Assembly: GCF_000517085.1 (NCBI RefSeq)
Contig: NZ_KI912107.1
Coordinates: 318,425-382,424 of the forward strand
DNA length: 64,000 nt
Source of the DNA: Saccharicrinis fermentans DSM 9555 = JCM 21142
GTDB taxonomy: Bacteria > Bacteroidota > Bacteroidia > Bacteroidales > Marinilabiliaceae
Direction: 5' to 3'
The position numbers and the translations under genes were made by a program. The number at the start of each line of letters is the position of its first letter. Positions within the stretch are counted from its first letter, which is position 1. The notes under the pieces are model-generated. The model was not told where the DNA came from and did no database searches. It worked only from the letters and a program-made list of their open reading frames with translations. Below, piece after piece: positions 4,507-55,773 of this stretch.

Positions 4507-6415
4507 CTTTCTGTTTTATTTCCATTTTGCTAATTTTTGCATATTGTAGTGGGGTCATACCTACAAATTCTTTAAATGTTGCGTAGAATGTTGATTGTGA
4601 TTTAAATCCTGCATTGAGACCAATACTTTTCATGGGTATTTTTTCCTCATTATCCTTTATGCAGCTTTTGCAATAATTTATACGGTGCTGGTTAATGAGG
4701 GTATTGAAGTTGCAATTAAATTCACTGTTAACAAGTTTAGAAACATATGTAATGTTTGTGGCCAGTTTATTGGCCACAAATTCAAGAGATACATCTTGAT
4801 TTTTATAAATCTCTTGTTTCTCAAGTAACTCCACTAAACGGGAACGTAATACGCTTTCTGATTTTTCGGGTTTTATTGTGTTCACTTCTTTAAGCAGACT
4901 CTCGATTACGCGCTTTTGATCATTTACGAGTAATTGCTGTCGGTAGATAGCCCTAAAAGCTCTTAATCTCGCTGCTTTATGAATGAAAATAAATACGGTG
5001 ATTGAAATTACAAAAATTAGAGATATACTTATGATTATCAGAAGAAGTCTGCCGATTTTAAGTTGGTTGGCCTGCATTGCAATAATGGCCTCATTATGCT
5101 TTTTTTCGTACTGTAAAGTGAGCTTATTAAATTTGGTGTTTTGTACTTCACTGTTCCACCTGTCTTTATAACTAACATACTGTTCCAGTGCTTTTGTATG
5201 TTTTTTATAGTCGTTTGTTTTTTTATAGATATCAACAAGGCGTTTACTTGCAGTAACAGCCCAGCCAATGAGGTTTGCTGAATCGGCCAGAAAAACGGCT
5301 TTTTTTAAGTTGGCTTCACTTGATTTGAAATTTTGATTTACCAGATCGAGGTCTCCAAGGTGGAATAAGCTAGATATAATTGACAAAGGTTTATTATAGT
5401 GTTTTTTTCTGTGTTCATAGCTTTTTTGATAATAGTGATGTGCATTATCATAATCGCCCCTGAGATAGTAAAAATTTCCGGTATTGCTCAAGGCATCGCC
5501 AACACTTGCGGGTTCATTTATCTCAATAGCCATCTTTAATGATTTTTTGAAATATGTTTCTGCTGTATCCCAATCTTTTTTTCCAGCATGAATAATCCCC
5601 ATGTTTTCATAGCCCCTTTGTATTTGCTCCCTGTTTTGGTGTGCGGTAGCAAGGTCGAGATGCTTTTGTTCCCATTTTAGTGCTTCATCAAACCGTTGCG
5701 CATCTCTGTACATCCTGCTAATGTCCAGTAGGTTCAAGGTTAACCTGTAGTTGTTGTTTAATTGGGTGGAAAAGGAGATGGATTTTTTTATATGGTCAAA
5801 TGCCTGAGAATATTTAGATAAGCGACGATAAGAAAATCCAATGCGGTATTGAAAATACTCGCGGCCTATTAGAATATCGTGGTTTTCTAATATACTATCG
5901 GCTTTGGTGAAAAACGGGATCGCTTTTTCGTATGCTGCAATTTCAATATAATACTCACCTTTTTTAGCCTGGAATGCTGCAAGATGAATGGGGTCATTCA
6001 ACTTATTTACCAATTTTTCTGCATCTGCCATTATGTGATTGTACTTCTTATATTCTTGGTTTGTTAATACATCAACTGCCGACCGTAATAGTAAGGTGGC
6101 TTTCAAAGTATGGTCGTTTAATAGCGAGGCAGCATTTAAAAAGGTAATGCCTGCACTGTCATAATTTAATTTTGCCTCATAGTCAAGACCTTTTATATGA
6201 AGAATACGGGCCTTAGATAAATCAGATAACTGAAGTGTATCATATTTTAAACACTCATTAAGAAAGTATGGGATAGAATCTCGTGATGTTCTATGATTTT
6301 TCACCGCTTGTTCATGGATGATTTCAATTTGAGAATCGTATGTGCTGTTCTTTCCACATGCAGACATGATGACTAAGAGCAGAGCAATAATAGAAGTTGT
6401 AATAGTTGAATTCAT
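4487..6415 (-). CDS. Membrane-bound TPR protein with C-terminal AraC-type DNA-binding domain
   Basis: One-component regulator with its sensor outside the cytoplasm. The N-terminus is a lipoprotein-like signal (LLLVIMSACG, possible lipobox Cys), followed by many tetratricopeptide repeats over about residues 30-420. A single membrane helix follows (GRLLLIIISISLIFVISITV, near 450-475), then a coiled linker, then an AraC-type double helix-turn-helix ending in SQSTFYATFKEFVGMTPLQY. Translation is placed at the ATG at 6415, not the frame-extending ATG at 6448, because a good promoter (6436-6465) overlaps the upstream one. It is divergent from the secreted-protein genes at 6.6-9.5 kb, which are therefore plausible targets (inference). 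The signal sensed is unknown. Confidence 0.85.
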   Translation of the reverse strand: MNSTITTSIIALLLVIMSACGKNSTYDSQIEIIHEQAVKNHRTSRDSIPYFLNECLKYDTLQLSDLSKARILHIKGLDYEAKLNYDSAGITFLNAASLLNDHTLKATLLLRSAVDVLTNQEYKKYNHIMADAEKLVNKLNDPIHLAAFQAKKGEYYIEIAAYEKAIPFFTKADSILENHDILIGREYFQYRIGFSYRRLSKYSQAFDHIKKSISFSTQLNNNYRLTLNLLDISRMYRDAQRFDEALKWEQKHLDLATAHQNREQIQRGYENMGIIHAGKKDWDTAETYFKKSLKMAIEINEPASVGDALSNTGNFYYLRGDYDNAHHYYQKSYEHRKKHYNKPLSIISSLFHLGDLDLVNQNFKSSEANLKKAVFLADSANLIGWAVTASKRLVDIYKKTNDYKKHTKALEQYVSYKDRWNSEVQNTKFNKLTLQYEKKHNEAIIAMQANQLKIGRLLLIIISISLIFVISITVFIFIHKAARLRAFRAIYRQQLLVNDQKRVIESLLKEVNTIKPEKSESVLRSRLVELLEKQEIYKNQDVSLEFVANKLATNITYVSKLVNSEFNCNFNTLINQHRINYCKSCIKDNEEKIPMKSIGLNAGFKSQSTFYATFKEFVGMTPLQYAKISKMEIKQKASSNLV

Positions 6416-15623: not shown

Positions 15624-16268
15624 ATGAAAATATTGACTGTTACAATTACTGTGTTTATGATCGTTTCTATATGTGGAGCAAATGCATCGGCAGAAACTTA
15701 TGAAGAGATAATGCGAAATAATATAAAACAAATGTATAAGGTGCAGACAGCACGAGAGTTACAGGCTATCTCTGCATCTTTTTATCGAGTAGCTAATAAG
15801 GAGCAGGATAAATGGTTGCCCTTGTATTATGCCTCATATTCGTTAGTGCGTATAGCTTTTTTTGTGAAAGCGGATGAAGAAATAGCTCGGCACCTGGATG
15901 TGGCACAAAGCTATATGGACAGGTTATTGGAATTTAAGCCGAAGGAATCAGAAATATATGTTTTACAGGCTTTACTTTATTCTATGCGTATCACAGGTCC
16001 GGCTAGTGGCATGAAGTATTCTATATTGTCCAACTCTTCGTTGGATAGGGCTGAAGAACTGGACAACGAAAATCCTCGCTTGTATTACTGTAGGGCGAAT
16101 AATATATATCATACGCCCACCATGTTTGGTGGGGGAAAGAAAAAAGCCAAACCCTTGTTTGAAAAAGCCAATGCACTCTTTAATCAACAAAGCCCCAAAG
16201 GAGATTTGTGGCCTTCATGGGGACAATGGCATACACAAGAAATGTTGAAACAATATGTAGTAGAATAG
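15624..16268 (+). CDS. Secreted hypothetical protein with TPR-like helices
   Basis: Exported protein of 214 residues with signal peptide MKILTVTITVFMIVSICGANASA. The mature part is helical and contains segments spaced like tetratricopeptide repeats (YMDRLLEFKPKESEIYVLQA and DRAEELDNENPRLYYCRAN). A glycine-rich turn TMFGGGKKKAKPLFEKANAL precedes the last helix pair. No catalytic motif is seen. It lies 34 bases after the TonB receptor gene and very probably in the same transcript, so a periplasmic role next to the receptor is likely (inference). Relatives with this layout occur beside TonB receptors in Bacteroidota, to my recollection, without a known function. Confidence 0.75.
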   Translation: MKILTVTITVFMIVSICGANASAETYEEIMRNNIKQMYKVQTARELQAISASFYRVANKEQDKWLPLYYASYSLVRIAFFVKADEEIARHLDVAQSYMDRLLEFKPKESEIYVLQALLYSMRITGPASGMKYSILSNSSLDRAEELDNENPRLYYCRANNIYHTPTMFGGGKKKAKPLFEKANALFNQQSPKGDLWPSWGQWHTQEMLKQYVVE

Positions 16269-16376
16269 AAGATGATATTTTTTCGCTATTTTTCTGCAGG
16301 TTTTATATCTGAAGAAGGGTGATAGAAAGGAGTAGATGAATATAAACAAATATGACCTTTGAAAATTTAATTTAAT

Positions 16377-16443
16377 CATATGAAACGAGCCATGAGAGTG
16401 ATCTCTCACACAGGTGAATGATTATCACGGCGAGTTCCATATG
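16377..16443 (+). repeat. Dispersed palindromic element, copy 1
   Basis: A 67-base element between the small secreted protein gene and the LytS-type kinase gene. The ends CATATGAAAC (16377-16386) and GTTCCATATG (16434-16443) form a 10-bp stem with one A/C mismatch. Inside lies a perfect hairpin TGAGAG-tgat-CTCTCA (16393-16408). The same element, at about 75 percent identity by eye with one indel, is found on the minus strand at 26622-26689. The left flank ATGACCTTTGAAA (16352-16364 region) resembles the right flank of copy 2, as if both derive from a tandem array. Confidence 0.7.
16380..16421 (+). CDS. Possible 13-residue micro-ORF inside the dispersed element
   Basis: ATG to TGA, encoding MKRAMRVISHTGE. 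The second copy of the element holds an ORF of the same length and register, MKQAMKMVSHTGG. The ORF lies between the stem arms, with its ATG within the 5' arm. No clear ribosome site precedes it. It could be a leader peptide for the downstream kinase gene, or simply part of a mobile repeat. Differences between the copies are not concentrated at third codon positions, so coding is unproven. Confidence 0.25.
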   Translation: MKRAMRVISHTGE

Positions 16444-16469
16444 ACCATTAAGAAACAAATTATAAACAT

Positions 16470-17522
16470 ATGAAAAATAGTAGGTGGAGTTTTAAGCGCT
16501 TTTTAATAATAGGAGGTGTTTGTATTCTTATAGGAATATTATCAAGCTTACTATTAAGTGGGCATCTGCCTTCCAACTTTAGGAATTTCATACGTAATGT
16601 AGGTTATTCTTTGATGATTGGATATGGTCTTTTTGCCAATGGTTACGTTTTTTCCTTGGTAGATGAGCGATGGTTATCATGGATCAAGCGTCCTGTTACT
16701 AGTTTTTTGGTAGCCTTGGGGGTAACTACGATGTATTCGTCCATTGTGATATTTTTTACCAATTGGTTTTGGTTTGGTTTTTTAATGGACTTAAGCTGGG
16801 AACAGTTTTGGCCCTTTGGAAAAGGAATATTGATTGTTGAGTATGTGGTTCTGTATTTTATCACTCAGTTTTTTTATGCCAGGGCTTTCTTTTTTGAATG
16901 GAAAAAATCCTTGGTGGCTAAGGAAGAGCTTAAACAGGAGGCGATATCGTTGCAATATAAAGTATTGCGGAACCAGGTAAATCCACATTTTTTATTTAAT
17001 AGCTTGAATGTATTAAGCTCATTGATTCGTATAGATGCTGTAAGAGCAGGGGTGTTTGTGGATAAGTTGTCGGGATTTTATAGAGACTTGCTGGGATTTA
17101 GAGGAAGAGATATTATTTCAGTTGAAGAAGAAATGCATTTCGTAAAAAAATATCTAGATCTGCAGATGGAACGGTTTGGGTCTAATATGGTTGTAGAGAC
17201 GCACTTTGATCAATCGAAAGCTTATCGGCTGATTCCAATGACTTTACAGATGTTGGTTGAAAATGCCATTAAGCATAATCAAGTTAGTCAAAAGAATAAA
17301 TTAGTGATTAAGATATACCCGGAGGATGATTATTTAGTGGTAGAAAATAACTATCAACCTTATCTGAATCCTATAGATGGTGAAAAAGTGGGTTTGAAAA
17401 ATTTAAGTGAGCGATATCACTATTTAACAGATAAACCTTTTGTGGTGGATAAAACGGATAGATATTTTAGGGTGAAAGTACCCTTGTTGAAAATGGAAAA
17501 TAAGCTTGAGGGAATACTGTGA
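16470..17522 (+). CDS. LytS-type sensor histidine kinase
   Basis: Membrane sensor kinase of 350 residues. Four hydrophobic segments fill about residues 10-145 (for example FLIIGGVCILIGILSSLLL and ILIVEYVVLYFITQFFY). The His_kinase (PF06580) domain follows, with the phosphoacceptor motif QVNPHFLFNSLNVLSSLIR near 168-188. A degenerate HATPase region contains MLVENAIKHNQ (N box) and GLKNLSERY (G box). No sensory domain other than the membrane part is visible, so a membrane or envelope signal is likely. It pairs with the LytTR regulator 55 bases downstream. The 5' spacer carries the dispersed palindromic element. Confidence 0.9.
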   Translation: MKNSRWSFKRFLIIGGVCILIGILSSLLLSGHLPSNFRNFIRNVGYSLMIGYGLFANGYVFSLVDERWLSWIKRPVTSFLVALGVTTMYSSIVIFFTNWFWFGFLMDLSWEQFWPFGKGILIVEYVVLYFITQFFYARAFFFEWKKSLVAKEELKQEAISLQYKVLRNQVNPHFLFNSLNVLSSLIRIDAVRAGVFVDKLSGFYRDLLGFRGRDIISVEEEMHFVKKYLDLQMERFGSNMVVETHFDQSKAYRLIPMTLQMLVENAIKHNQVSQKNKLVIKIYPEDDYLVVENNYQPYLNPIDGEKVGLKNLSERYHYLTDKPFVVDKTDRYFRVKVPLLKMENKLEGIL

Positions 17523-26154: not shown

Positions 26155-26544
26155 CTACCTAATATCCAATACTACTTTTATTTGATGCGATTCAGCAATG
26201 TCTAACACTTTGGCCACCTCTCCGGTAGGCGCATTTTTATCGGTTCTCAATTTAATGAATGTTTTATCACTGGAATTAAATGTTTTCAGCAGTGCATCTT
26301 CCAAGGTCGCTTCCGACACTCTTTTGTTGTTCACATAAAAATTACCAGCAGACGAAACGCGGGCATTGATAAACTTTTCAATCACCACTTTTTTAGTTGC
26401 CTGTTTCGGTATTAATAATTTGATGGCATTGGGATGCACCATGGTGGATGTTATCATAAAAAATATCAGTAACAAAAACACGATGTCCGTCATACTTGAC
26501 ATGCTGAAACTGGCACTTATTTTGGTTCTTCTTTTTAAAGCCAT
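26155..26544 (-). CDS. exbD: ExbD/TolR family biopolymer transporter, first copy
   Basis: A 129-residue motor subunit with the same membrane segment and conserved Asp (SMTDIVFLLLIFFMITSTMV) as the next gene. Its periplasmic part differs (ATKKVVIEKFINARVSSAGN against LPKSDHQVSAKP). Two ExbD paralogues per operon are common in Bacteroidota, probably forming a mixed dimer in the motor. It is separated from exbB by a 167-base spacer that contains copy 2 of the dispersed palindromic element. Confidence 0.9.
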   Translation of the reverse strand: MALKRRTKISASFSMSSMTDIVFLLLIFFMITSTMVHPNAIKLLIPKQATKKVVIEKFINARVSSAGNFYVNNKRVSEATLEDALLKTFNSSDKTFIKLRTDKNAPTGEVAKVLDIAESHQIKVVLDIR

Positions 26545-26621
26545 ATCTTTTGGATTAAAAGAAATTTAGGTAAGAGATAAGTAAAGATAGTTTCATATGG
26601 TTAATTTTACCTTTCAAAGGC

Positions 26622-26689
26622 CATATGGAACTCTCCAACATTAATTATCCTCCTGTGTGTGAAACCATTTTCATGGCTTGTTTCATATG
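26622..26689 (-). repeat. Dispersed palindromic element, copy 2
   Basis: A 68-base minus-strand element in the exbB-exbD spacer, homologous to 16377-16443. The arms CATATGAAAC (26689-26680) and GTTCCATATG (26631-26622) are identical to copy 1, and the inner hairpin is TGAAA-atgg-TTTCA. A further half-site, CCATATGAAAC, follows at 26600-26590 after GCCTTTGAAAGG, so part of a second unit is present. Confidence 0.7.
26645..26686 (-). CDS. Possible 13-residue micro-ORF inside the dispersed element
   Basis: Encodes MKQAMKMVSHTGG with stop TAA, in the same register as MKRAMRVISHTGE in copy 1. Start, length and stop position are kept although the element has diverged. The frame is open upstream of the ATG into the exbB end. 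No clear ribosome site is seen. Confidence 0.25.
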   Translation of the reverse strand: MKQAMKMVSHTGG

Positions 26690-26711: not shown

Positions 26712-27404
26712 TTATGCCGCTGGTTCGTTTAATAGATCCATAAACTCCATGGTTCTGGCTTCGAGTTTAAAGACTACTTTTTCCACTCTGGCTACCAGGA
26801 AGTTATATGCAAAGTATGCAATAATACCCACTACCAGTCCGGTTACTGTTGTTACCATTGCAGTATATATACCTGATGAGAGCAGACTAACATCAATATT
26901 ATTACCTGCGTTGGCCATATCAAAAAATGCTTTTATCATTCCTATAACGGTTCCCAGAAAGCCAATCATGGGGGCGCCACCGGCTACGGTTGCCAGGGTA
27001 GGTAATCCTTTTTCTAAGCGACTTATTTCTAAGTTTCCAACATTTTCAATGGCTGTGTTTACATCTTGGAGCGGACGTCCGATTCTGCTAATTCCTTTTT
27101 CGATCATGCGGCTAACTGGATTATCCACTTGTTGACAAAGGGAGTAAGCGGAGTCAATTTTTCCTTCATGGATATATTCTTTCATTTTATTCATGAAGCT
27201 TAAATCTTCCGAAGCTGCTTTTTTGATGGCAAAATATCTTTCAAAGAAGATATAAACAGCCACAAAAGAAAGAAGAACCAGTGGAATCATAATCCATCCA
27301 CCTTTAATAGCCATGTCAATATAATTCATTTGGTTTTCAGCAACAGCTTCTGCCAGTTCAGCAGTTTGTTCCGTTGCATTTTGTATCAATAATATAGGAT
27401 TCAT
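26712..27404 (-). CDS. exbB: MotA/TolQ/ExbB proton channel family protein
   Basis: Inner-membrane motor subunit of 230 residues. The first membrane segment is at about 31-53 (GGWIMIPLVLLSFVAVYIFF). A cytoplasmic loop follows, then two helices near 130-155 and 165-195 (LATVAGGAPMIGFLGTVIGM and VTTVTGLVVGIIAYFAYNFL), with the family residues in GAPMIGFLGTVIGM. It is the first gene of the exbB-exbD-exbD-tonB operon and would energise the TonB receptor at 13.4 kb and others in the cell. A TATTTTTA box lies upstream (one base off the -7 consensus). Confidence 0.9.
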   Translation of the reverse strand: MNPILLIQNATEQTAELAEAVAENQMNYIDMAIKGGWIMIPLVLLSFVAVYIFFERYFAIKKAASEDLSFMNKMKEYIHEGKIDSAYSLCQQVDNPVSRMIEKGISRIGRPLQDVNTAIENVGNLEISRLEKGLPTLATVAGGAPMIGFLGTVIGMIKAFFDMANAGNNIDVSLLSSGIYTAMVTTVTGLVVGIIAYFAYNFLVARVEKVVFKLEARTMEFMDLLNEPAA

Positions 27405-42657: not shown

Positions 42658-44937
42658 ATGAGGAAGATATGTAGTTTTTTGTTGGTGACTATTGGTGCCT
42701 TTATTGGTGTGTCTGGACAGGTTTATAGCACAACCGCAGATGGAGATTTTGATGGGGCAGTTTGGGATTATCCAAGTTGGGTTGGAGAGGGTCCACAAGA
42801 TGGGAAATTAAGTAAAGCGTGGCAAATTGATCATGTACTTACCCGAAACGGAGATGTTACTTCTACGCAGGCAGGAGCTATTTATGGAACCCTTAATGTG
42901 GTGGAGGGAGATTATAAAAAAAGCGGAGGAGGTTCGGATGTAATCTATGATGGAGGACGGCTTGAAATTTGGGGTAATTTAACGGCCACGCAGAAAATAG
43001 AAGTTAGAGACGGAGGATTGTTAATTGTACATGGTGATGCGAGTTTTAGCAACAGTGGTTCCCAACTGTCAGGAGATGTGATTGTGACGGGGAATGTTTA
43101 TTTGAAAAATACGGATGTGGTTAGCACCGGTAATTTAATTATAGGTGGAAATTTAGAAGTAGCGAATGGCGGTGGTAGTTTTAATGGAGATATCTATCAG
43201 TTGGATCCGGACGCTTCAACAACCTTTCCTAATTATAAGGATGTTGATGTTGGTGGGGAAGATGAGATGATGGAAGATGATGATATGGTTGATGTTTTGT
43301 TGGAGATTTTAGAGGATGCAGGTATGATAGAAGGGTCATTATTGCCGCCTCACCAATGGAATGGGGGAGAAAGTGATGATTGGTTTACTGCTGCTAACTG
43401 GACGTATGGAGTGGTACCAGATGCCAGTTCTGATATCACCATCGTCAATTCAGGAAATGCTCCTGTCATTGGTGATGGAGCTATTGCTTATGTAAATAAT
43501 CTGACCATTGAGGCAGATGCCTCTTTAACCTTGGAGCCGGGAGCACGTATGACCATTCAAGGCGATTTGATAACCAATGATCAGTTGACTGTAAAAAATA
43601 CGGTGGATGCTCCAGTATCTCTTATTGTGAATGGAAATGTAAATGGAGAGACTAATTATGAGTGGGAGGGAATGACTAAACAATTATGGTGGTATATTTC
43701 TCACCCTGTCACTGATGTTACGGAAACAGATTATGACAATTCGTATGGTGTAGGAAGATATGTTATAAACCGTTATTCTAAAGATAGTTGGTTTAGAGTG
43801 GCTGGTTATGTTAGTTCAGATGATATATATGATTTTAGTTCAGATCCAGATTCTGATGTCCAATTGGAAGGCTATGATTTGTACCCTGCTGAGGATGTTC
43901 CATTGAGATATGCAGGTGTATTAAATAATGAAGATTATTCACGGACTTATACCAAAGCACAATGGTGGCTAGTGGCAAACCCTTATCCATCCTATATGGA
44001 TGTGGAGGATGCTGGTTTTGATATGGGTAATTTTGGAAAGACGGTATATATCCGAAAAAGTGACAATTCCGTATCGGCCTATAATGTATTGAATGGAGTG
44101 GGGGTCAATGAAGGCTCGCGATATATCGCTCCTGGACAGAGTGTCTGGTTGAGAACCTACAATGCTACGGATTATGTGAATATTTCAACCACCGCACGGG
44201 TTCATGAAACGGGAGGGTATGGTTTAAAGAGTGGTAGCGCAGAAGAAAACGATCGACTTAGATTAGCGCTTTCTAGTGATCATGGGACAGACGAGATAGT
44301 GATGATTTTTAATGTAAATGGCTCGGAATTATATACGGCTTATGATTCAGAGAAATTATTTAATAGTGGAAACATTGCAAATCTTTATAGTGAAAAAGAT
44401 GGTAAGGATGTTGCAATTAATTTTTTACCTGAATTAGAGCCTGGTACCGTAATTCCTTTGTCTTACAAGGTGAATGAGGATGGTTTGAGTGATTTTACCA
44501 TTAGAGCTACGAATATAAACAGCTTTATTCCCGAGGTAGATGTATACTTGGAGGATAAAGAGGAAGGCGTTACCATCAATCTGAGAGAAACAGCTGAATA
44601 TACTTTTATACCTTTGGCAACCAGTACCAGTGATCGCTTTGAATTAAAATTCGAAGCATCTGTATCTACAGATATAGAAAGTAATGAGGCCGAAATTTCG
44701 CTGAATAATGTAACCATTTATGCGGTGAACCAAAAGGCTTATGTGGTAGTGTCTGAAGAGCTTTTGATGGCCGAAGACCGTGCGATTGAAGTCTATAATC
44801 TTTCTGGTCAGCTGAAGGCTCAGTATGTGTTGAATACCACAAAAACTGTGTTTGACTTACCTGAAAGTAAAACAATGTATATCATCAAGGTGAGTGTCGA
44901 TCAATCATCATATCAGGAGAAGGTGGTCGTATTTTAA
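42658..44937 (+). CDS. Large secreted protein with type IX-like C-terminal domain
   Basis: Exported protein of about 759 residues. The signal peptide MRKICSFLLVTIGAFIGVSG starts at the ATG at 42658, which aligns with the start of the paralogue; the ATG at 42652 is two codons earlier. Residues 20-200 form beta-strand repeats (NLTATQKIEVRDGGLLIVHG). A run of Asp/Glu/Met (EDEMMEDDDMVDVLLEILED) follows. Then come about 530 residues almost the same as the end of the 3334-residue neighbour, beginning PPHQWNGGESDDWFTAANWT. The last about 75 residues (EVYNLSGQLKA then MYIIKVSV) have the shape of a type IX secretion C-terminal signal. No enzyme motif is seen; a structural or adhesive role is likely. 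Confidence 0.85.
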   Translation: MRKICSFLLVTIGAFIGVSGQVYSTTADGDFDGAVWDYPSWVGEGPQDGKLSKAWQIDHVLTRNGDVTSTQAGAIYGTLNVVEGDYKKSGGGSDVIYDGGRLEIWGNLTATQKIEVRDGGLLIVHGDASFSNSGSQLSGDVIVTGNVYLKNTDVVSTGNLIIGGNLEVANGGGSFNGDIYQLDPDASTTFPNYKDVDVGGEDEMMEDDDMVDVLLEILEDAGMIEGSLLPPHQWNGGESDDWFTAANWTYGVVPDASSDITIVNSGNAPVIGDGAIAYVNNLTIEADASLTLEPGARMTIQGDLITNDQLTVKNTVDAPVSLIVNGNVNGETNYEWEGMTKQLWWYISHPVTDVTETDYDNSYGVGRYVINRYSKDSWFRVAGYVSSDDIYDFSSDPDSDVQLEGYDLYPAEDVPLRYAGVLNNEDYSRTYTKAQWWLVANPYPSYMDVEDAGFDMGNFGKTVYIRKSDNSVSAYNVLNGVGVNEGSRYIAPGQSVWLRTYNATDYVNISTTARVHETGGYGLKSGSAEENDRLRLALSSDHGTDEIVMIFNVNGSELYTAYDSEKLFNSGNIANLYSEKDGKDVAINFLPELEPGTVIPLSYKVNEDGLSDFTIRATNINSFIPEVDVYLEDKEEGVTINLRETAEYTFIPLATSTSDRFELKFEASVSTDIESNEAEISLNNVTIYAVNQKAYVVVSEELLMAEDRAIEVYNLSGQLKAQYVLNTTKTVFDLPESKTMYIIKVSVDQSSYQEKVVVF

Positions 44938-45027: not shown

Positions 45028-45070
45028 AAAACAAAAGAGGGCTTTGCTTAGGTAAGGCCCTCTTGTTTTT
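45028..45070 (+). terminator. Terminator after the 759-residue giant-protein gene
   Basis: A GAGGGC / GCCCTC stem (45037-45042 and 45057-45062), extended by A-T pairs, has a 14-base loop and is followed by seven T residues. The loop and stem reappear, slightly changed, after the 3334-residue gene (55736-55773). Confidence 0.75.
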
Positions 45071-45439
45071 TTATGGGTTTTAGCTGAAGGAGTGATGGTT
45101 TATAATTAATGTACTGATCATTTACTGAATAGGGGAGTTGTGGTCTTGTTTTGATTGGTTGATAAGTAATTTGCTTTTATTCATACCCGTTAGTGCATAT
45201 CCTATGTACAACATAAATATTTAGTTTTTATATTTTCATAAGAAGGTGAAGGCATAAAGGAGATGACGGTTTGTGATAAGACTTATTTAGCATACTAAGG
45301 AAGCTTAGTTCTTGTCTTTTTGAGTTAGTAAAATATCTTGCTAGGTGGGTAAGTAACTTAAAAAGTGTTTTTGTCATGAACGAATTTACCAGCTGTTTGT
45401 CAGTATAAAACACAAATTGATGTATAAAATATATAAATC

Positions 45440-45604: not shown

Positions 45605-48600
45605 ATGAGAAAAATATACGCTGTTTTATTTGGGATGTTGTTGTTTGCAAGTGTAACTAAAGCGCAGGTAACAACTATTTGGTCTGATGATTTTGAAACC
45701 GATAAAGGGTGGATTTTATCCGGAGAATTTGAGAGAGGAACGCCTGACGGAGGGGGAGGAGATCATGGAAATGATAATCCAACTTCGGCTTATAGTGGAA
45801 GTTATGTGTTAGGTACAAATTTAGATGGGGGGTATGCAGATGATTTAAATGAACGTGAATATGCAGCTGTATCTCCGGTAATTGACTGTAGTGGAAAACA
45901 AAATGTGATGCTTAATTTTCAACGTTGGTTAAATGTTGAGTCAAGTGATTATGATTTTGCTTATATCGATGTGTATGATGGTTCATCCTGGCAGAATATT
46001 TGGACCAATGAAACGTCGACATTGACTGAGAGTTCTTGGTCGGCACAATCTATAGATATTTCTGCTTATGCTGATGGCAATAGCGGATTGCAAGTTCGTT
46101 TTGCATTGGGGTCTACAGATTATGGTTGGAATTACTCTGGTTGGAATATTGACGATATTGAGATAGCAGGTGAAATTGCAACATCAATTTCAAATGTTTT
46201 TACCAGTTCAGGTACTTTTACTGTTCCCAATGGAGTTACATCCATTACTGTAGAGTGTTGGGGAGCCGGAGGTGCAGGAGGAGGTTCTACATCTAATAAG
46301 AAAGGAGGATCCGGAGGTGGAGGCGGAGGTTATACTACGTCGGATCTTGTTGTAACCCCGGGTGAAGTTATTTCTTATACAGTAGGTGTTGGCGGTGTGG
46401 CAAGTACCGGAAATGGTGGTGATGGTGGCTCAACTAGCTTTAAAAGTTTAATAGCTGATGGAGGAACTGGTGGAGGACGTAATAAAGGAACGGTAGGAAT
46501 TGGAGGTGCTGGTTCAGGAGGGACAACCAATGTAACCGGAGATTCTGGAACTCAAGGAGGAAATACTGGAGGAGCAGGAGGGGCAGGAGCTAATGGTGGT
46601 GACGGTGGTGTTGGAAATGTAAAAAATACAAACGGTAATGACGGTAGTTCTCCTGGAGGAGGAGGAAGTGGTGGTGAAGCAACTAATAGGAATTCCTTTG
46701 CCGGAGGTAATGGAGCCGATGGACAAATTAATATAAGTTATGACCTTCCATTGGAAGTAGTTAAAACAACCTATTATTCGTATCGTTCCGGTAACTGGAG
46801 TGATATATCAACATGGACCCATGATCCGGGTGGTACAACGCAAACGGCGACTGATATACCCGGTGATGATGCCAGAGTGGTAATATTAAATGGTAGAACA
46901 GTTACCATGGATGTTGATGTGAGTCAGTCAAACTTGAACTTGGTTATCAATGATGGTGGTTTTTTAGATATGTCAAGCCATGTCTTTACCAATACCTTAA
47001 CTGAGTTAAGTGGAAAAGGTACCTTAAAGTTGGCCTCGGTTCACTTTCCAGATGCTACCACTAATTATCTGGTAGAAGCCGATGGAGGTATTGTGGAATA
47101 TGACAATTCCTCAGACTTTGATTTGCCAGTGGCACAAACCAGTTACAATCATCTTGTAATAAATGGAGCAGCCATTGCCACACAAAAACATGATTTAAAT
47201 ATTTATGGTGACTTACACATAAAGCAAGGTACATATCGTATCAACGATGGATCAGCTAATCGTTATGCCTTAACCATTGATGGTAATGTAACGGTGGATA
47301 GTGGAGCTGCTTTGACGGTAGGGACTGGTAAAACAACGTCCAATGATACCAGTGGAGGTACTGCTCCGTTTACAGATTATTATGCCAATAATACCCATAC
47401 GATTGTTGTTAATGGTGATTTTACCAATAATGGTAGTGTTAGACTGACCAATCAAAATTATCCAGTATATAATGCATTTCCAGACAATGGAGCTGCCACC
47501 GTTTATTTTAAAGGAACGACCGATAATACGCTGCTGTGTAACGGAACGACCGATTTTTATAATTTGGTATTGGATAAGGGTGTTGATAAAACATTTAAAT
47601 TAACGGTTTATGCATCAGCATATGATCATTTTCGTTTGTTTGGACGAAATAATTTAGGTAAAGAAGGTTCTGGATCTAATCCTAACTTACGTAAGGCACT
47701 TTGGGTACGCACCGGAACCCTTGAATTAACAGGTTTAACGATTATCCCGTCTCTAACAGAGGGAGGAGAAGATTTTATCGTTCCTGCTAATGGTGCTTTT
47801 TTAATGAATGGTACGGATGTGATTGTGTTATCTACGGCCAATAATTATGCAGAGGTAAATGCAGCTTATGGCTTAAGTGAATCCTCGGGAAATATACATG
47901 GCGTTTATGTTGGTGGTAATCAGGCTTTCTCCATCTATGGAAAGCTTCAGGTGGATAAAGGTTATTTGTCCAGTAGACGTTCTGGTGGTTTTATTACTTG
48001 GTCCGAATCATCTGGTGAGTTTATTATCAATGGAGGTCATGTAGATGCGCGTCAGATCAGATCCAGTACAGCAGATGCTTTGTCTTCTTTTAGTCAAACG
48101 GGAGGTTTGCTTACCTTAAGGGGTAGATTGTCCTTAGAGGAGAATCCTTCGACGCCTGCAGAAATTAGCGGTGCTGCTTTGTCTGGTAGTAGTTATACTT
48201 CCGATATTTCTAACTCCTATGGTACTTTTAGTATGTTTTTACCAGCCAGTGTATTTGCTATGTCTGGTGGTGAAATTGAAATATTGGATGTGAGCGGTTC
48301 TAATGGATATGCATTTGATGTGGCATCAGCCGCTAAGAATATTAATGTTACCGGAGGTACCATACGTTTTAAACCACAAGGAAGTAGCAACGAAGTATTT
48401 AAAATTCGGTCTACCGCTCCGTTTTATAATATGGTGATTGAGAATGAAGGCAGCGGTTCGCCAAGTGTTCAGTTGGTAGCTTATAGTAGTGGTGGAACTG
48501 ATATCGAAGGAGATAGAATCGTATTGAATGATCTGAGTTTAAGTAGTGGAAGCTTTAATGCCAATGGGTATGATGTTACGGTAGGCGGTGATTTTTCCTT

Positions 48601-51600
48601 GGCAGATGGAACTTCTTATACTACAGGTGATAATAGTACCATATTTAATGGTACGGAGGAGCAAAAATTAACGGTTGAATGGTCTTCGGCTTTAAGCTTG
48701 CATAAATGGGTAGTGAATAAGTCTGCCAGTCGATTATTATTGGATGGTTCACAAACTATTATTGATGTAGCAGATTCCTTGATTATTTATGATGGTGAAT
48801 TAAATGATAATAGCAAGACTATTCAGGTGGCTGGTAATATATATAATGCTGGTGTGCATTCTGGAGATGGTCTATTGCTGATGTCCGGTTCTTCTATAAC
48901 AGGTAACGGTTCTGGACAGTTTCAAAACTTACAACTTGATAGGAATGGAGAAATTTCGCTAGATGCCAATATTATTGTGAATGGTACTCTTACTTTTGCA
49001 AAAGATTATGTGCTAAACATAGAAACCAATAATATTAGTTTTGCGGCGGATGCAAGTATTGTAGGAAGTTCTTCTTCCCGTTATATCAAAACAGCAGGTA
49101 ATGCGGGTGATGGTGGTGTAACCTTTTCTTATAGCGCCATAACAGAGAAAACATTTCCATTGGGGGTAGATGCTTATACACCCGCTACCATTGGCTTTAC
49201 TTCGGCACCTTCTACTTATGGTGATATTACCGTTGTACCTGTTAACTATGAGCATCCAACAACGACGAGTGATGATGAGGCATTGGATTACTTTTGGCGT
49301 ATTTCGTCTACGGGATTTACTGGGGTGAACGGAAAGGTTTCTCATGAGTTTCATTATGATCAGTCAGATGTAGCAGCTAATGAGTCTGCCTATTTACCGG
49401 CTCGTTATGACGCGGCTTCTTATGCCTGGAACAAAGGAACTACCGCAGATGTTGTGGAAACAAATACGATCAATGATTGGTTTTTACCGAGTATGAGTGC
49501 AGATTATATTGATGGTGATTATACGGCAGGTTTAAATTCTGCTTTCGGAACTCCTAAAAAATATTATAGTAGGCAGTCTGGTTACTGGTATCAAAGTTCT
49601 ACATGGTCTACCAGCAGTCATACTGGTGGAGCAGCTTCCAGTATTCCCGGATCAGGAGATATTGTGATTATTGGTAACGGGCATACTGTATCATTACTAC
49701 GTTGGGATACCTCTGCCGATAGGAGTCCTCAGTATTGTGCTAGCCTGCAGATTGAAACGGGGGCTGTTTTGGATGCCACTTATAATCCGTCCAGTGATTT
49801 TGGGATGGTGATTTCACACCCCTCGGGCAACGGTAAATTTAGGGTGTCGGTGAATGATAACTCACAAAGTATATTTGAGTTCCCTAATGGTGATTTCTCG
49901 GACTTTAATGCCAATCTGGGTACAACTGAGTTATATACCAATAATGCTACAGCTGGCACCACTTATTGGTTGCCAGATGGAGTGGAAGAATATGGTAATT
50001 TAATGTTAAGTCCATTGGGTGGATCAAATATTATTTTCCCAAATCAGGACGTAACGATTTTAGGTGATTTAACTGCCGATGGACAAAGTTCTGAGTCATG
50101 GTATTGTCCTACATGGAATAGTAATTACCCGAATGGTTTCGCAAATAGAACACGTCAGGCTAAAACGATTACCATCAAAGGTGATTTTAATCTTGTTGGT
50201 GGAGCCCTGATTTATTATGGAAATAATAGTCTGGCCCAGGATTTTGTGATTGAAGGAGATCTTGTGGTGGCCGAGGATGCTGGTATTACGGTGTATAGTA
50301 ATGCCAATAATCAGAGCATTGCTATTGGAGGTGATTTAATCAATAATTCTCGATCTTCTGGAGGAGGTGCAAATGCATACAGGGGATGCGATTTTGAGGA
50401 CATTCCATTGACCTTTTTTGGTGATACAAATGCCAAAATAACGCAATCGGATGGTGTGTCTTACACTACTTATACTAATGTAGAGTCTATTACGGTGAAT
50501 AAGGGTAGCTCTCAAGCTACCTCACTGACTATGGATATAGCTGGTACAGTTTCTTATGAATCTACTGAATGGCTAAGTTTGGTGAATGGTACTTTTATCT
50601 ATAATAGAGATGCGGATGTCACCGTCAATACCAACAATAGCTTTACCATCCCTGGAACTGCGGGTTTAACCATTGATAGTAATAATGATTTTAATTTATG
50701 TCAAGGAAATGATGATGATTATGATGTGTATTTGAATGGTAAGCTAACGCTTGTGGATGGATCTCTCAATATAGGGAATTCATCCAATAATCGAAATAAC
50801 GATATTGAATATTCCGGAGGAGGACTTTCTGAAATAGATGTACAGGGAGGGAATTTGTATGTGAACGGTCAGATACGACGTAATCCGGCCTCTTCCGCAG
50901 GTATATTAAAATATAGTCAAAGTGGTGGTGATGTGACCATTAATGGTAGAAGTGCTTTAGCGAGCAATGCCAAGCTTGAAATATTGAATGTAGGAAGTGA
51001 ATTTAATATGACAGATGGTACATTGACTATTATGCGAGGTGGAGGTACCAGCTATGGTGATTTATATCTACGACCTGAGAAATATAACGTAACAGGAGGT
51101 GAAATTATTTTTGATAACTCTGGGGTCGGCGCACAAAATTATCTTTTGGATGCTAATATTTCGTTGAATGACTTGACCATTGATGGTAGTGGAGATGATG
51201 CCAGTGTGAAATTGATGCTGAGTCCATTAATCTTAGATGGTGATTTAACATTAGCTAATGCCTATAGTATTTTGGATGCCAATGCAACTTATAATGTGGC
51301 CTTAACGGTGAATGGTGATTTTGAGAATTCGGGTGTGTATAATTACTACGAAAATACAACCACATTAAATGGTGTAACACAGTATATTACAGGCTCTTCG
51401 GATATTGAATTTTATGATTTGGTGATTGACCCTTTAACAAAAGTAGCTTTAAGTAAGGATATTACTGTATATCACGATCTTAATTTAAATAGCGGAACCT
51501 TAGATGTGGGGGCGCATTCTATTTATGTGAAAGGCGATGTAATCAATAACGCCACTTATTCCTCTACAGGAAATGGGCTTGTGTTAGATGGCTCTGTGAG

Positions 51601-54600
51601 TCAGGAGATTTCCGGTACAGGAACTTTCGCCAGATTGGAGCTTAAAAATACTTCAGGAGCTACTACAGCAAATGATATTTCATTACAAGGTGAACTAGCG
51701 TTGACAAAAGGTGTGTTAAATATTGGTAGTTACTCGCTTTCTCTGGGAGAAACTGCATCTATATCAGGAATATTTAGTGAGAATACTATGATTACCACCA
51801 ACGGGGTTTATAGTAATAAGGGGGTTCAAAAGGTAATGCCTGCCGGATCATCTTCCTTTACTTTTCCTGTTGGAGTATCCGGAAAATATACACCTGCGGT
51901 GTTAAATTTTACGGCCAGTAGCAATGTGTCTACAGTGAAGGTTCACCCGGTTAATTCAAAGCATCCGGCTAATATTGATGATGCCAATGTGTTGGAATAT
52001 TATTGGGCAGTGGAGAGTGTTGGTTTGGTGGGAGCCAGTGGTTCTTTGGTGTTGAATTATAAGGATGAGGATGTTCAGGGGGATGATGCCAATTACTACG
52101 CAGAACGTTTGTTGGTTCCTGGTACTGCTTGGTCCGAAAGTAACTCAGTGGATGAGACAGCGAACCAGATTACCTTTACCCTGTCGGGTGATGATATTAG
52201 TGGCGAGTACACCGCTGGTTTAGATGCTGCTTTCCCCGATAATATACCTCAATATACCAGTACGATGAATGGCGACTGGTCTGATCCGACTAGTTGGACA
52301 CAAACCGGTGGCGATGCCTATACCTTAAGTGGTGCACCCAATGGTTTTATTGTGTATATTCAACATGATATTACTTTGGATGAGAATTTTGTTCAGGCGA
52401 ATAAGGTCATCATAGAATCAGAAGGTACCTTGAAAATTGATAATACTACCTATGGACATATTTTAAATAATGTATCAGGATCAGGTACAATCTATCTGGA
52501 AGATGGACAATTGCCAGAGGGAAATTTCGATGAATTTTTGAGTTGTAGTAATACTTCTACCTTAGAATTCGGTGGTTCAGGTGATTATGGTATTATTGCC
52601 GATTTGTTTAATAATGCTGCGAATTTAGTATTCTCAGGTACAGGAAGTAGAATATTACCCAATGCAGACTTAACGGTTTGTAAACAGTTATTGATAGATG
52701 GGCCTGTTTTGGATAATAGTTTGTATAATAGGGCTTTATATATTAATGGAAGCTTTGAAAGAGTCGCTGGTAGTTTTATTAGTGGAAGTGGATCTTCAGC
52801 CATCGTATCTTTTATTGGTTCTACTGAACAAAATTTAGGCGGTTTTAGTGGGGCAGACAATATGTTGAATAACCTTGAGATAGATAATAGTGCTGGATTA
52901 AGGCTAAATGATGACGTGGAAGTGGCAGGTACTTTGATTTTAACCAATGGAGTAATTCATACTTCGTCAGAGAACAGCTTGACCCTTACCAACACTGTAG
53001 GTGTGGGTGTTACACCGTCGGCCGGTACAGCCAACTCTTATGTGAATGGCCCATTGCGTAAGTGGATGAATCAGAGTGATTCATTTACCTTTCCTATTAG
53101 CTCAGATGGTGAGTTGGGAAATAAGCTGACAATAACTGCGGTTCGGACAGGAACCAAATTGTGGACGGCTGAATATAAACGACCTAATGGTACTTATGAG
53201 GATTATGCTTTTCCATTAACTGCTATCAATGCCCATGAGTATTGGAATCTATCTACTCCGGGTGGAGGTGAGGCGAAAATCCAACTGGGATGGGATTCTG
53301 GAAGTGATATTACGCCTGTGATGACTGAACATGGTCTTACGGATATTAGAGTGGTGAATTATGATGCGAGTAGCTGGCAGGAAATAGCATCCAGCGCTAG
53401 TGGAGCTGATGCAGCAGGTATCGTGATTACCAATAGTAGGGTGTATGTGAATGAGTCTGGTAGTGATTTCACAACTGCTACAGTGAATACCAATAAGCCT
53501 AAGGTACGTTTTAATCCAGATGAGGCAGTATGTGACTTGAGTACAGGTATTAAAGTAGAAATGACTTCTACTGTACCAACAGCTGCAGATTATGAATTAT
53601 CGTACACGATCAATAATGGTGCTACTCAAACAGTTACCGTAAGTAGCTTCCCATATTATTTGCCTACTCCAACCATTGGGGTGTATGCTTTAACCGGCTT
53701 TAAGTACGATAATAAAGTGAGAGAGGGCGTAGTGGATGTCACCGAATTTGAGGTCTTTGAAACACCGACAGCTGCTTTAGCAGGAGATGACCAGAGTCAT
53801 CAGGGACTTTCGCAAACCACTCTTGAAGCAAATACTCCTGTAGTTGGTTATGGACAATGGAGTATTGTGAGTGGAACAGGTGGATCCTTAGTAGATCCTA
53901 CAGATCCAATGACTGTATTTAATGGTACCAATGGTTCGTCCTATTTATTAAGATGGACGATCACCAATGGCGATTGTCAGTCGGTAGATGAGGTAGCTAT
54001 CGCATTCCCCATATTACCTCCACATCAATGGCAAGGAGCTATAAGTGACGATTGGTTTACTGCCGGTAACTGGACAGATGGTGTGGTTCCTGATGGTGTT
54101 GCGGATATTACCATTGCCAATGCTGGAAATGAACCTGTTATTCGAAGTGGAGCTATTGCCTATGTAAATAACCTGACCATTGAAGCAGATGCTTCCTTGA
54201 CCTTGGAACCGGGAGCACGTATGACCATTAATGGTGATTTAATTACCAATGATCAGCTTACTGTAAAAAATACGGTGGATGCGCCAGTATCTCTTATTGT
54301 GAACGGAACGGTAAGTGGAGAAAGTAATTATGAGTGGGATGGAATGACAAAGTTAGGATGGTGGTATATTGCCCATCCTGTATCTGGTGTAACTGAAAGT
54401 GATTATGACAATTCGTATGGGGTTGGAAGATATGCTATGAATCGATATTCAAAAGATAGTTGGTTTCGAGTAGCAGGTTATGTTAGTTCAGATGATATAT
54501 ATGATTTTAGTTCAGATCCAGATCCTGACGCTCAATTAGAAGGATATGATTTGTACCCTGCAGAGGATGTTCCTTTGAAATATGCAGGTGTTTTAAATAA

Positions 54601-55609
54601 TGAAGATTATTCCCGCACCTATACTAAAGCTCAGTGGTGGCTTGTTGCAAATCCTTATCCATCATATATAGACGTGGAGGATGCCGGATTTGATATGGGT
54701 AATTTTAGAAAGACGGTGTATATACGTAAAAGTGATAATTCTGTATCAGCCTACAATGTATTGAATGGTGTGGGTATCAATGAAGGTTCAAGATATATCT
54801 CTCCAGGTCAGAGTGTTTGGATGAGAACGCATAGTGCCACGGACTATGTTAATATTTCAACCACTACTAGGGTACATGAAACGGGAGGATATGGTTTGAA
54901 GAGTGGTAGTGAAGAAGGAAATGATAGAGTTAGATTACAGCTTCAAAGTGATTATGGTACTGATGAAACAGTCGTCATATTTAATGAAAATGGGTCCGAG
55001 TTCTTTACCGCCTATGATTCAGAGAAGTTATTCAATAGTGGTAATATTGCCAATATATATAGTAATAAGGATGGTAAGGAAATCGCTATTAATTCATTAC
55101 CTGAGTTAGAATCGGGTATGGTGATTCCTTTGTCTTACAAGGTTGAAGAAGACGGGTTGAGTGATTTTACCATTAGAGCTACAAATTTAAATAGCTTCAT
55201 TCCTGAAGTAGATGTGTACTTGGAGGACAAAGTGGAAGGGCTTTCTGTTAACTTGCGTGAAACACCTGAATATACTTTTATGCCTTTGACTACTAGTGCC
55301 AGTGATCGTTTTGAATTAAGGTTTGTAGAATCAGTATCTACAGGTATAGAAAGTGCTGAGGCTGAGATCTTACAGAGTAATGTCACTATTTATGCGGTGA
55401 ATCAAAAGGCTTATGTGAAGGTTTCAGAAGAGCTTTTAATGGCCAATGATCGTGTGATTGAGGTGTATAATCTTTCTGGACAACTGAAGGCTCAGCATGA
55501 GTTGAATTCCACTAAAACGGTGTTCGATTTACCTGATAGTAAAACAATGTATATTATCAAAGTGAGTATCGATCAATCATCATATCAGGAAAAAGTGATC
55601 GCTTTTTAA
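45605..55609 (+). CDS. Giant secreted beta-repeat protein with type IX-like C-terminal domain
   Basis: 3334 residues. Signal peptide at 1-21 (MRKIYAVLFGMLLFASVTKA). A MAM/jelly-roll domain at about 25-188 (WSDDFETDKGW to WNIDDIEIAG). A Gly-rich segment at about 194-378 (ECWGAGGAGGGS, many GG pairs). Then come long arrays of beta-helix-like strands divided by G8-like openings, each beginning SGNWSDISTW, SGYWYQSSTWS or NGDWSDPTSW (about 390, 1320, 2215). Two modules near 1160-1315 and 2065-2215 are paralogous (FPLGVDAYTPA / FPVGVSGKYTPA; DYFWRISS / EYYWAVES). The last 531 residues are nearly the same as in the preceding gene and end in a type IX-like signal (YNLSGQLKAQ, YIIKVSI). Probably a surface adhesin or matrix protein; no catalytic motif seen. 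Confidence 0.88.
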   Translation: MRKIYAVLFGMLLFASVTKAQVTTIWSDDFETDKGWILSGEFERGTPDGGGGDHGNDNPTSAYSGSYVLGTNLDGGYADDLNEREYAAVSPVIDCSGKQNVMLNFQRWLNVESSDYDFAYIDVYDGSSWQNIWTNETSTLTESSWSAQSIDISAYADGNSGLQVRFALGSTDYGWNYSGWNIDDIEIAGEIATSISNVFTSSGTFTVPNGVTSITVECWGAGGAGGGSTSNKKGGSGGGGGGYTTSDLVVTPGEVISYTVGVGGVASTGNGGDGGSTSFKSLIADGGTGGGRNKGTVGIGGAGSGGTTNVTGDSGTQGGNTGGAGGAGANGGDGGVGNVKNTNGNDGSSPGGGGSGGEATNRNSFAGGNGADGQINISYDLPLEVVKTTYYSYRSGNWSDISTWTHDPGGTTQTATDIPGDDARVVILNGRTVTMDVDVSQSNLNLVINDGGFLDMSSHVFTNTLTELSGKGTLKLASVHFPDATTNYLVEADGGIVEYDNSSDFDLPVAQTSYNHLVINGAAIATQKHDLNIYGDLHIKQGTYRINDGSANRYALTIDGNVTVDSGAALTVGTGKTTSNDTSGGTAPFTDYYANNTHTIVVNGDFTNNGSVRLTNQNYPVYNAFPDNGAATVYFKGTTDNTLLCNGTTDFYNLVLDKGVDKTFKLTVYASAYDHFRLFGRNNLGKEGSGSNPNLRKALWVRTGTLELTGLTIIPSLTEGGEDFIVPANGAFLMNGTDVIVLSTANNYAEVNAAYGLSESSGNIHGVYVGGNQAFSIYGKLQVDKGYLSSRRSGGFITWSESSGEFIINGGHVDARQIRSSTADALSSFSQTGGLLTLRGRLSLEENPSTPAEISGAALSGSSYTSDISNSYGTFSMFLPASVFAMSGGEIEILDVSGSNGYAFDVASAAKNINVTGGTIRFKPQGSSNEVFKIRSTAPFYNMVIENEGSGSPSVQLVAYSSGGTDIEGDRIVLNDLSLSSGSFNANGYDVTVGGDFSLADGTSYTTGDNSTIFNGTEEQKLTVEWSSALSLHKWVVNKSASRLLLDGSQTIIDVADSLIIYDGELNDNSKTIQVAGNIYNAGVHSGDGLLLMSGSSITGNGSGQFQNLQLDRNGEISLDANIIVNGTLTFAKDYVLNIETNNISFAADASIVGSSSSRYIKTAGNAGDGGVTFSYSAITEKTFPLGVDAYTPATIGFTSAPSTYGDITVVPVNYEHPTTTSDDEALDYFWRISSTGFTGVNGKVSHEFHYDQSDVAANESAYLPARYDAASYAWNKGTTADVVETNTINDWFLPSMSADYIDGDYTAGLNSAFGTPKKYYSRQSGYWYQSSTWSTSSHTGGAASSIPGSGDIVIIGNGHTVSLLRWDTSADRSPQYCASLQIETGAVLDATYNPSSDFGMVISHPSGNGKFRVSVNDNSQSIFEFPNGDFSDFNANLGTTELYTNNATAGTTYWLPDGVEEYGNLMLSPLGGSNIIFPNQDVTILGDLTADGQSSESWYCPTWNSNYPNGFANRTRQAKTITIKGDFNLVGGALIYYGNNSLAQDFVIEGDLVVAEDAGITVYSNANNQSIAIGGDLINNSRSSGGGANAYRGCDFEDIPLTFFGDTNAKITQSDGVSYTTYTNVESITVNKGSSQATSLTMDIAGTVSYESTEWLSLVNGTFIYNRDADVTVNTNNSFTIPGTAGLTIDSNNDFNLCQGNDDDYDVYLNGKLTLVDGSLNIGNSSNNRNNDIEYSGGGLSEIDVQGGNLYVNGQIRRNPASSAGILKYSQSGGDVTINGRSALASNAKLEILNVGSEFNMTDGTLTIMRGGGTSYGDLYLRPEKYNVTGGEIIFDNSGVGAQNYLLDANISLNDLTIDGSGDDASVKLMLSPLILDGDLTLANAYSILDANATYNVALTVNGDFENSGVYNYYENTTTLNGVTQYITGSSDIEFYDLVIDPLTKVALSKDITVYHDLNLNSGTLDVGAHSIYVKGDVINNATYSSTGNGLVLDGSVSQEISGTGTFARLELKNTSGATTANDISLQGELALTKGVLNIGSYSLSLGETASISGIFSENTMITTNGVYSNKGVQKVMPAGSSSFTFPVGVSGKYTPAVLNFTASSNVSTVKVHPVNSKHPANIDDANVLEYYWAVESVGLVGASGSLVLNYKDEDVQGDDANYYAERLLVPGTAWSESNSVDETANQITFTLSGDDISGEYTAGLDAAFPDNIPQYTSTMNGDWSDPTSWTQTGGDAYTLSGAPNGFIVYIQHDITLDENFVQANKVIIESEGTLKIDNTTYGHILNNVSGSGTIYLEDGQLPEGNFDEFLSCSNTSTLEFGGSGDYGIIADLFNNAANLVFSGTGSRILPNADLTVCKQLLIDGPVLDNSLYNRALYINGSFERVAGSFISGSGSSAIVSFIGSTEQNLGGFSGADNMLNNLEIDNSAGLRLNDDVEVAGTLILTNGVIHTSSENSLTLTNTVGVGVTPSAGTANSYVNGPLRKWMNQSDSFTFPISSDGELGNKLTITAVRTGTKLWTAEYKRPNGTYEDYAFPLTAINAHEYWNLSTPGGGEAKIQLGWDSGSDITPVMTEHGLTDIRVVNYDASSWQEIASSASGADAAGIVITNSRVYVNESGSDFTTATVNTNKPKVRFNPDEAVCDLSTGIKVEMTSTVPTAADYELSYTINNGATQTVTVSSFPYYLPTPTIGVYALTGFKYDNKVREGVVDVTEFEVFETPTAALAGDDQSHQGLSQTTLEANTPVVGYGQWSIVSGTGGSLVDPTDPMTVFNGTNGSSYLLRWTITNGDCQSVDEVAIAFPILPPHQWQGAISDDWFTAGNWTDGVVPDGVADITIANAGNEPVIRSGAIAYVNNLTIEADASLTLEPGARMTINGDLITNDQLTVKNTVDAPVSLIVNGTVSGESNYEWDGMTKLGWWYIAHPVSGVTESDYDNSYGVGRYAMNRYSKDSWFRVAGYVSSDDIYDFSSDPDPDAQLEGYDLYPAEDVPLKYAGVLNNEDYSRTYTKAQWWLVANPYPSYIDVEDAGFDMGNFRKTVYIRKSDNSVSAYNVLNGVGINEGSRYISPGQSVWMRTHSATDYVNISTTTRVHETGGYGLKSGSEEGNDRVRLQLQSDYGTDETVVIFNENGSEFFTAYDSEKLFNSGNIANIYSNKDGKEIAINSLPELESGMVIPLSYKVEEDGLSDFTIRATNLNSFIPEVDVYLEDKVEGLSVNLRETPEYTFMPLTTSASDRFELRFVESVSTGIESAEAEILQSNVTIYAVNQKAYVKVSEELLMANDRVIEVYNLSGQLKAQHELNSTKTVFDLPDSKTMYIIKVSIDQSSYQEKVIAF

Positions 55610-55735
55610 TTGAAAAATGTAATAGATGATCAAAATCGAATTAGAATGGCTGTTTTAATACGCATGACAAGGTACTAATGGATTCATTTGGAATATCATA
55701 GTACTACCTCCAATTGGTAGTATGGAAATAAAAAA

Positions 55736-55773
55736 AAAGAGGGCTTTACTGAGGTAAGGCCCTTTTGTTTTTT
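55736..55773 (+). terminator. Terminator after the giant-protein gene
   Basis: A GAGGGC..GCCCTTTTGTTTTTT hairpin homologous to 45028-45070. A second hairpin, TACTACC..GGTAGTA, lies just upstream (55700-55721 region). Confidence 0.7.

Follow-up and report, generated by a model that had tools for sequence, protein, structure and literature searches.

A probable ~90-nt non-autonomous mobile element with a guide-like internal arm, found mostly at start codons in Saccharicrinis fermentans

A family of short repeats in Saccharicrinis fermentans most probably represents a non-autonomous mobile element of ~90 nt that carries a guide-like internal arm, is moved in trans and inserts mostly at start codons. 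Two copies lie in the window, by which we mean the whole 64,000-nt stretch of DNA analyzed (contig C3, 318425-382424; genome size 5.98 Mb). An earlier sequence-only reading of the window had reported two intergenic elements on opposite strands with identical arms, and both are present with exact arms at 16377-16443 (+, 67 nt) and 26622-26689 (-, 68 nt), an arm pattern expected 0 times in shuffled sequence. The flanks of the two copies do resemble each other, as it had seen: the unit extends further than first described (16377-16473, +; 26593-26689, -), and the linker remnant of an older unit precedes copy 1. The features concerned are as follows.

15624-16268, + strand: gene upstream of unit 1; its orthologue in a relative (G005) abuts the downstream gene, with no unit
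16350-16376, + strand: linker remnant of an older unit upstream of unit 1 (partial HMM match 63-97)
16377-16473, + strand: unit 1, the whole repeat including the left target ATGA and the right-end CATATGA (HMM match 1-97, 98 bits)
16377-16443, + strand: left hairpin of unit 1, with ATGAAAC:GTTCCAT and GCC:GGC paired and tandem GA.GA between them
16380-16421, + strand: micro-ORF of unit 1, MKRAMRVISHTGE*, which opens at the old start codon (read from the sequence)
16434-16443, + strand: internal guide arm of unit 1, GTTCCAT-ATG; the guide triplet, 16441-16443, covaries with the right-end triplet
16444-16466, + strand: A-rich linker of unit 1, now part of the downstream gene's leader (sequence and alignment)
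16467-16473, + strand: right end of unit 1, CATATGA, containing the start codon (16470-16472) of ORF 16470-17522
16470-17522, + strand: gene downstream of unit 1, sensor histidine kinase-like
26155-26544, - strand: ExbD-like gene (identity by eye)
26555-26596, - strand: 13-codon ORF MKLSLLISYLNFF* following the unit 2 right end
26593-26689, - strand: unit 2, an older diverged copy between exbB-like and exbD-like genes (HMM match 1-97, 76.9 bits)
26622-26689, - strand: left hairpin of unit 2 (68 nt), with the guide triplet at 26622-26624
26645-26686, - strand: micro-ORF of unit 2, MKQAMKMVSHTGG* (read from the sequence)
26712-27404, - strand: ExbB/MotA-like gene (identity by eye)

Identical 97-nt copies of unit 1 occur at several further loci of the genome, and its 67-nt hairpin folds at -23.4 kcal/mol against a shuffled mean of -13.1 (z -3.5); the hairpin of the older unit 2 is not more stable than shuffles (z -0.87). 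The product of the gene behind unit 1 contains an NPHFLFNSLN motif, from which we take it to be sensor histidine kinase-like. Because the exbD start lies ~50 nt beyond the right end of unit 2, where the ORF MKLSLLISYLNFF* opens, unit 2 was not inserted at a real gene start; the exbB-exbD interval spans 15-154 nt in six relatives and is unit-free there. Elsewhere in the window, an ORF of 3334 aa occupies 45605-55609, a 300-nt repeat (82% identical) is found upstream of it at 43340-43639 and in its 3′ part at 54012-54311, and a hairpin-like 44-nt repeat (91% identical) is found at 45028-45071 and 55730-55773.

Units are ~90 nt long (up to ~110 nt in other species) and consist of a hairpin, a triplet, an A-rich linker of ~23 nt and a right end NNN-ATGA. 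The order is target ATGA, hairpin ATGAAAC GA GC...GGC GA GTTCCAT, triplet, linker and right end N'N'N'ATGA, the termini being ATGAAACGAG on the left and TATAAANNNATGA on the right; the hairpin loop of S. fermentans units carries CACACAGG.GAATGATTA. In an alignment of 35 matches, the ATG of the right end serves in most cases as the start codon of the gene that follows. The description of the element as dispersed, structured and array-forming was borne out by the genome search, the arrays and the pairing of the hairpin. Exact arms recur 35 times in the 5.98-Mb genome (reversed control pattern, 0), and a covariance-model search (model R2) found at least 150 units, a lower bound. Compensatory changes also came to light, with the hairpin 98% paired and showing three compensatory pairs in an alignment of 48 diverse units; an alignment confined to the units of one genome (A1) gave no covariation, because older copies there decay and covariation becomes visible only between lineages. 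In 1.63 Mb of the genome, units are laid out as 146 single, 25 double and 1 triple, with arrays running head-to-tail. In 22 of 26 neighboring pairs, the unit closer to the gene is also closer to the consensus; it is thus usually the younger of the two, and arrays tend to grow by additions next to the gene. CRISPR and integron arrays, considered on account of this one-ended growth, were rejected, as all units are versions of one sequence, with no differing spacers or cassettes.

Other repeats accompany these units, here called type 1. A second unit type of ~97 nt (ATGAAACTGGCATGGCCAGCGCAAAT...CACACAGGTGAATGATT...GTTTCGCTAATTTTTAACATATGA) has the same loop and the same kind of site, is mixed into type-1 arrays and was matched 25 times (E < 1e-6) over 1.63 Mb of the genome (e.g., L053 from 9336, +; L111 from 10092, +). 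A miniature element of ~260 nt, with ends TAGTGGCTGCAAGAAAA and TTTTCTTGCAAAGACTA, was found in six copies (e.g., L083 near 10090, +), all of which contain a type-1 unit. The linker goes with the guide triplet: CAG/CTG units have ACCAATAACTTAGA... and CCG/CGG units have ACCTTAATAAATAAA... (L238-L263, L305-L424), while the hairpin is common to both linker types, as if halves had been swapped between lineages.

That the repeat is a non-autonomous mobile element is strongly supported by its distribution and by its filled and empty sites. Units were found in 33 of 61 genomes (S. fermentans with relatives and other Bacteroidia; model R2) and, by model R3, in 26 of 197 genomes sampled from the class, the named carriers being Marinilabilia, Anaerophaga, Thermophagus, Paludibacter, Dysgonamonadaceae and Prolixibacteraceae. 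Among young units of S. fermentans, one set of 7 and one of 4 are identical over their full length and sit at unrelated genes; identical units also occur within Thermophagus xiamenensis and within Marinilabilia salmonicolor. The gene pairs flanking both window copies are unit-free in relatives, at an identity (~70-80%) too low for base-exact empty sites, and the starts of pepT, leuB, pspC, ksgA and aqpZ are likewise unit-free in relatives where readable. A base-exact comparison is offered by an unrelated repeat of ~260 nt with six copies, four of which read ...ataatCATATGAAAGCTTC, while the other two are longer by exactly 90 nt at CATATGAAA. This 90-nt insert has CATATGAAA as a direct repeat on both sides, yet the same sequence belongs to the element's right end. 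In a duplicated gene family, one or two units precede the same start. No longer, gene-bearing version of the element was found in 1.63 Mb of this genome. On a contig from a viral collection (L425, IMGVR_UViG_3300011323_000053; minus strand near 3992), a unit whose linker measures 63 nt precedes a gene; this diverging copy is a unit with a long linker and not a gene-bearing version. The contig looks Mu-like, a phage type assigned by eye from its ORFs, and a Mu-like phage is a possible vehicle for carrying units between cells.

The preferred insertion site is the beginning of a gene. The ATG at the right end is exact in 158 of the 199 units; at 105 of these an ORF of 50 aa or longer begins, and many other units lead into a further unit. 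Of the 43 young units, 35 lie at starts, 7 between genes and 1 inside a gene, compared with 8, 30 and 75, respectively, for empty CATATGAA sites. If only sites at which insertion leaves genes unbroken are compared, starts come out as strongly favored, whether by targeting or by selection. The three bases before the left ATGA vary in first units, as expected of a target, and the right-end triplet is the element's own. In clean first units, from which units preceded by other units, including the second unit type, were removed, the left triplet is CAT in 9 of 50 compared with 9 of 317 unit-free starts (p 1.5e-4), and T stands at -1 in 70% compared with 34% at unit-free starts (p 3e-6); the effect is smaller but still present once units preceded by the second unit type are taken out. 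In relatives, matches between left triplets and guides exceed those in shuffles, in a set that includes units preceded by the second unit type, and in the diverse set they do so weakly; the match is not significant in the named-genome set (115 matched bases vs. 107 shuffled, maximum 129). Matching of the target triplet amounts to no more than a preference.

The match between the guide and the element's own right end is tighter, and from the alignments it is strongly supported that the one is matched to the other. In relatives, the triplet following GTTCCAT varies in step with the one that precedes ATGA at the right end, mostly as its reverse complement. The pairs CCG/CGG, GTG/CAC, CTG/CAG, TCG/CGA, CAG/CTG, ATG/CAT, TAG/CTA and ACG/CGT were all found, so that at least 8 guide triplets occur naturally, every one paired with a right end of its own. 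The match is exact in 77 of 94 units from 17 genomes (2000 within-genome shuffles: mean 47, maximum 60) and in 97 of 131 units from mostly named genomes (shuffles: mean 25, maximum 39), the 131-unit set being largely separate from the 94-unit set, with some genomes common to both. Across the 48 diverse units, the three guide/right-end pairs form in 93% of cells vs. 62% when shuffled, and the covariation score of 0.80 falls to 0.18 on shuffling and to 0.105 or less on sliding. Among older units of S. fermentans, 31 depart from ATG/CAT. Twenty-seven of these are unmatched, and the other four are GTG/CAC or CTG/CAG, units that probably belong to other lineages. Because older copies lose the match without compensation, it would be needed for moving and not afterwards; it appears to be required when the element moves rather than to regulate a gene. 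Targeting steered by the guide is moderately supported.

The sites show that the element inserts at (n)ATGA(A), mostly at a gene's start codon and in sense orientation. One ATGA remains to the left of the insert, and the element supplies another at its right; the gene thus retains a start codon and acquires the element's A-rich leader, and the old start codon opens a short ORF that runs into the element. The arm 5′-GTTCCAT-NNN-3′ is complementary to N'N'N'-ATG at the right end of the same element and covaries with it. In the mechanism that we propose, this arm would act as a guide that base-pairs with both right end and target, the most likely substrate being single-stranded DNA folded into the left hairpin, in the manner of IS200/IS605 guide sequences. 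Start codons may be favored because ATGAAA is a common gene start in Bacteroidota and because insertion there leaves the gene usable. An enzyme acting in trans would move the element.

Several other explanations can be set against this mechanism. An RNA control element, in which the arm would pair with the old or the new start and translation of the micro-ORF would turn the downstream gene down, seems unlikely, although RNA folding gives it some basis. The layout had been thought suited to translational control, and the arm can indeed pair with either start codon: over 100 folded units, pairing averages 0.62 for the old start and 0.27 for the new one, and masking the left arm, as a ribosome would, shifts pairing to the new start (0.57) in a manner dependent on the guide triplet (0.02 when changed). 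The complementarity, however, decays uncompensated after insertion, as in the 27 of 31 departures above, the micro-ORF is not kept, and the target-triplet bias is left unexplained. The micro-ORF itself had been called conserved. Its 13 codons are present in both window copies and in 38 of 43 young units, and third codon positions change slightly more than the others (0.209 vs. 0.150 and 0.149), a point in favor of a peptide. But only 18 of 49 older units retain the 13 codons, and many units of Thermophagus and Dysgonamonadaceae stop after four (MKRA*), while those of other genera also encode unrelated peptides; the young units agree because they are recent copies. A conserved leader peptide was rejected on the grounds that the frame is lost in older units and differs among genera, and a leader peptide or small protein as the functional output is hardly credible. 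The micro-ORF is mostly a by-product of the old start codon reading into the element. Very improbable as well is the absence of any mobile element, with old 5′ leaders kept alike by gene conversion and tandem duplication. Arrays do exist, units could convert one another, and hairpin and linker modules may recombine; but the orthologous sites in relatives are empty, the filled and empty sites that differ by exactly 90 nt are found within an unrelated repeat, which is not a gene leader, and a unit is also present on the phage contig. As the origin of copies at new loci, gene conversion and duplication are refuted.

A further alternative concerns the enzyme. Guide sequences are used by IS200/IS605 and RAYT enzymes (PMC6006769, PMC8266576), and subclass 2.6 RAYTs have atypical flanking secondary structures in Bacteroidetes (Quentin et al., 2018; PMC6006769), which makes these enzymes the natural suspects. 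The units could be the cognate repeat of a RAYT-type Y1 (HUH) transposase, e.g., of subclass 2.6, that has since been lost here; the guide logic resembles IS608 and REP recognition (PMC6006769, PMC8266576), four Y1 genes are present in S. fermentans, and intact ones occur in many relatives. We consider this improbable, though not negligible. All four RAYT/Y1 copies of S. fermentans (L041-L044) are degenerate, yet its units are recent and identical, and no Y1 (PF01797) match was obtained in the unit-bearing genomes G014 (98% complete), G251 (100%) and G023 (95%). Two unit HMMs run over 50 Y1/RAYT loci of relatives (L185-L234) gave just a few scattered matches and did not reveal a pattern of units flanking these genes, and the units lack a GTAG foot. 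At one such locus (L228, genome G009; minus strand, ~2869-2954 and 5589-5667), decayed unit-like sequences lie in or beside RAYT remnants, amid REP-like repeats. A lagging-strand mechanism as in IS200/IS605 predicts a replication-strand bias. Unit arrays are co-directional with replication 114:58 (66%) and genes 614:341 (64%), i.e., units have no bias beyond that of genes. A mobilizing enzyme for the units was not found among the Y1/RAYT genes of the genome and its relatives.

The proposed guide-bearing element also differs from each known system to which it was compared. Rfam gave 0 family matches in the window at the gathering score; the one other match, to CRISPR-DR43 (E 1.7), is due to chance and falls outside the unit. 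Open-access papers on such Bacteroidota repeats contained nothing matching. Like IS200/IS605 elements, the units have a hairpin end, retain the target at the left flank, need no coding capacity when non-autonomous, and apparently have end and target picked via internal guide pairing. They have, however, one guide in the 3′ strand of the left hairpin, whereas the IS200/IS605 tetranucleotides lie 5′ of two subterminal hairpins, and they differ further in the missing linked Y1 and strand bias, the start-codon target and the length of ~90 nt; the element works like a guide-steered single-strand element, yet it is not placed in the IS200/IS605 family. With REP/REPIN-RAYT systems it shares short, structured intergenic repeats at high copy, single or clustered, with related sets in many species, but the foot is not GT[AG]G (consensus ATGAAAC/GTTCCAT), no RAYT is linked, units are mostly at start codons in directional head-to-tail arrays, and the right end covaries with an internal arm. 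MITEs are similarly tiny, non-autonomous and numerous; the units differ in having no terminal inverted repeats, and their direct repeat is the ATGA target plus end sequence, with no clear target duplication. IsrB/HEARO elements likewise insert next to ATGA but are far longer and carry a structured guide RNA, in many cases along with a nuclease gene. It is quite possible, though short of probable, that the units form a new class of mobile DNA, ~90 nt long, in which start codons would be found by a rewritable guide, an undiscovered non-Y1 enzyme would do the moving, and at least 100 genes would receive new leaders.

Small bacterial repeats usually land between genes. This element mostly inserts at the start codon itself; the gene stays usable, the leader of ~100 or more genes here has been swapped, and annotated starts and upstream ORFs in unit-bearing genomes need rereading. 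Its natural guide variants, which track their own end, are a ready test of short guides steering mobile DNA, and the element points to an undescribed recombination enzyme in Bacteroidota. If the new class holds true, at least 100 genes per genome would have been given a new leader and a new start, with the old start retired into a micro-ORF.
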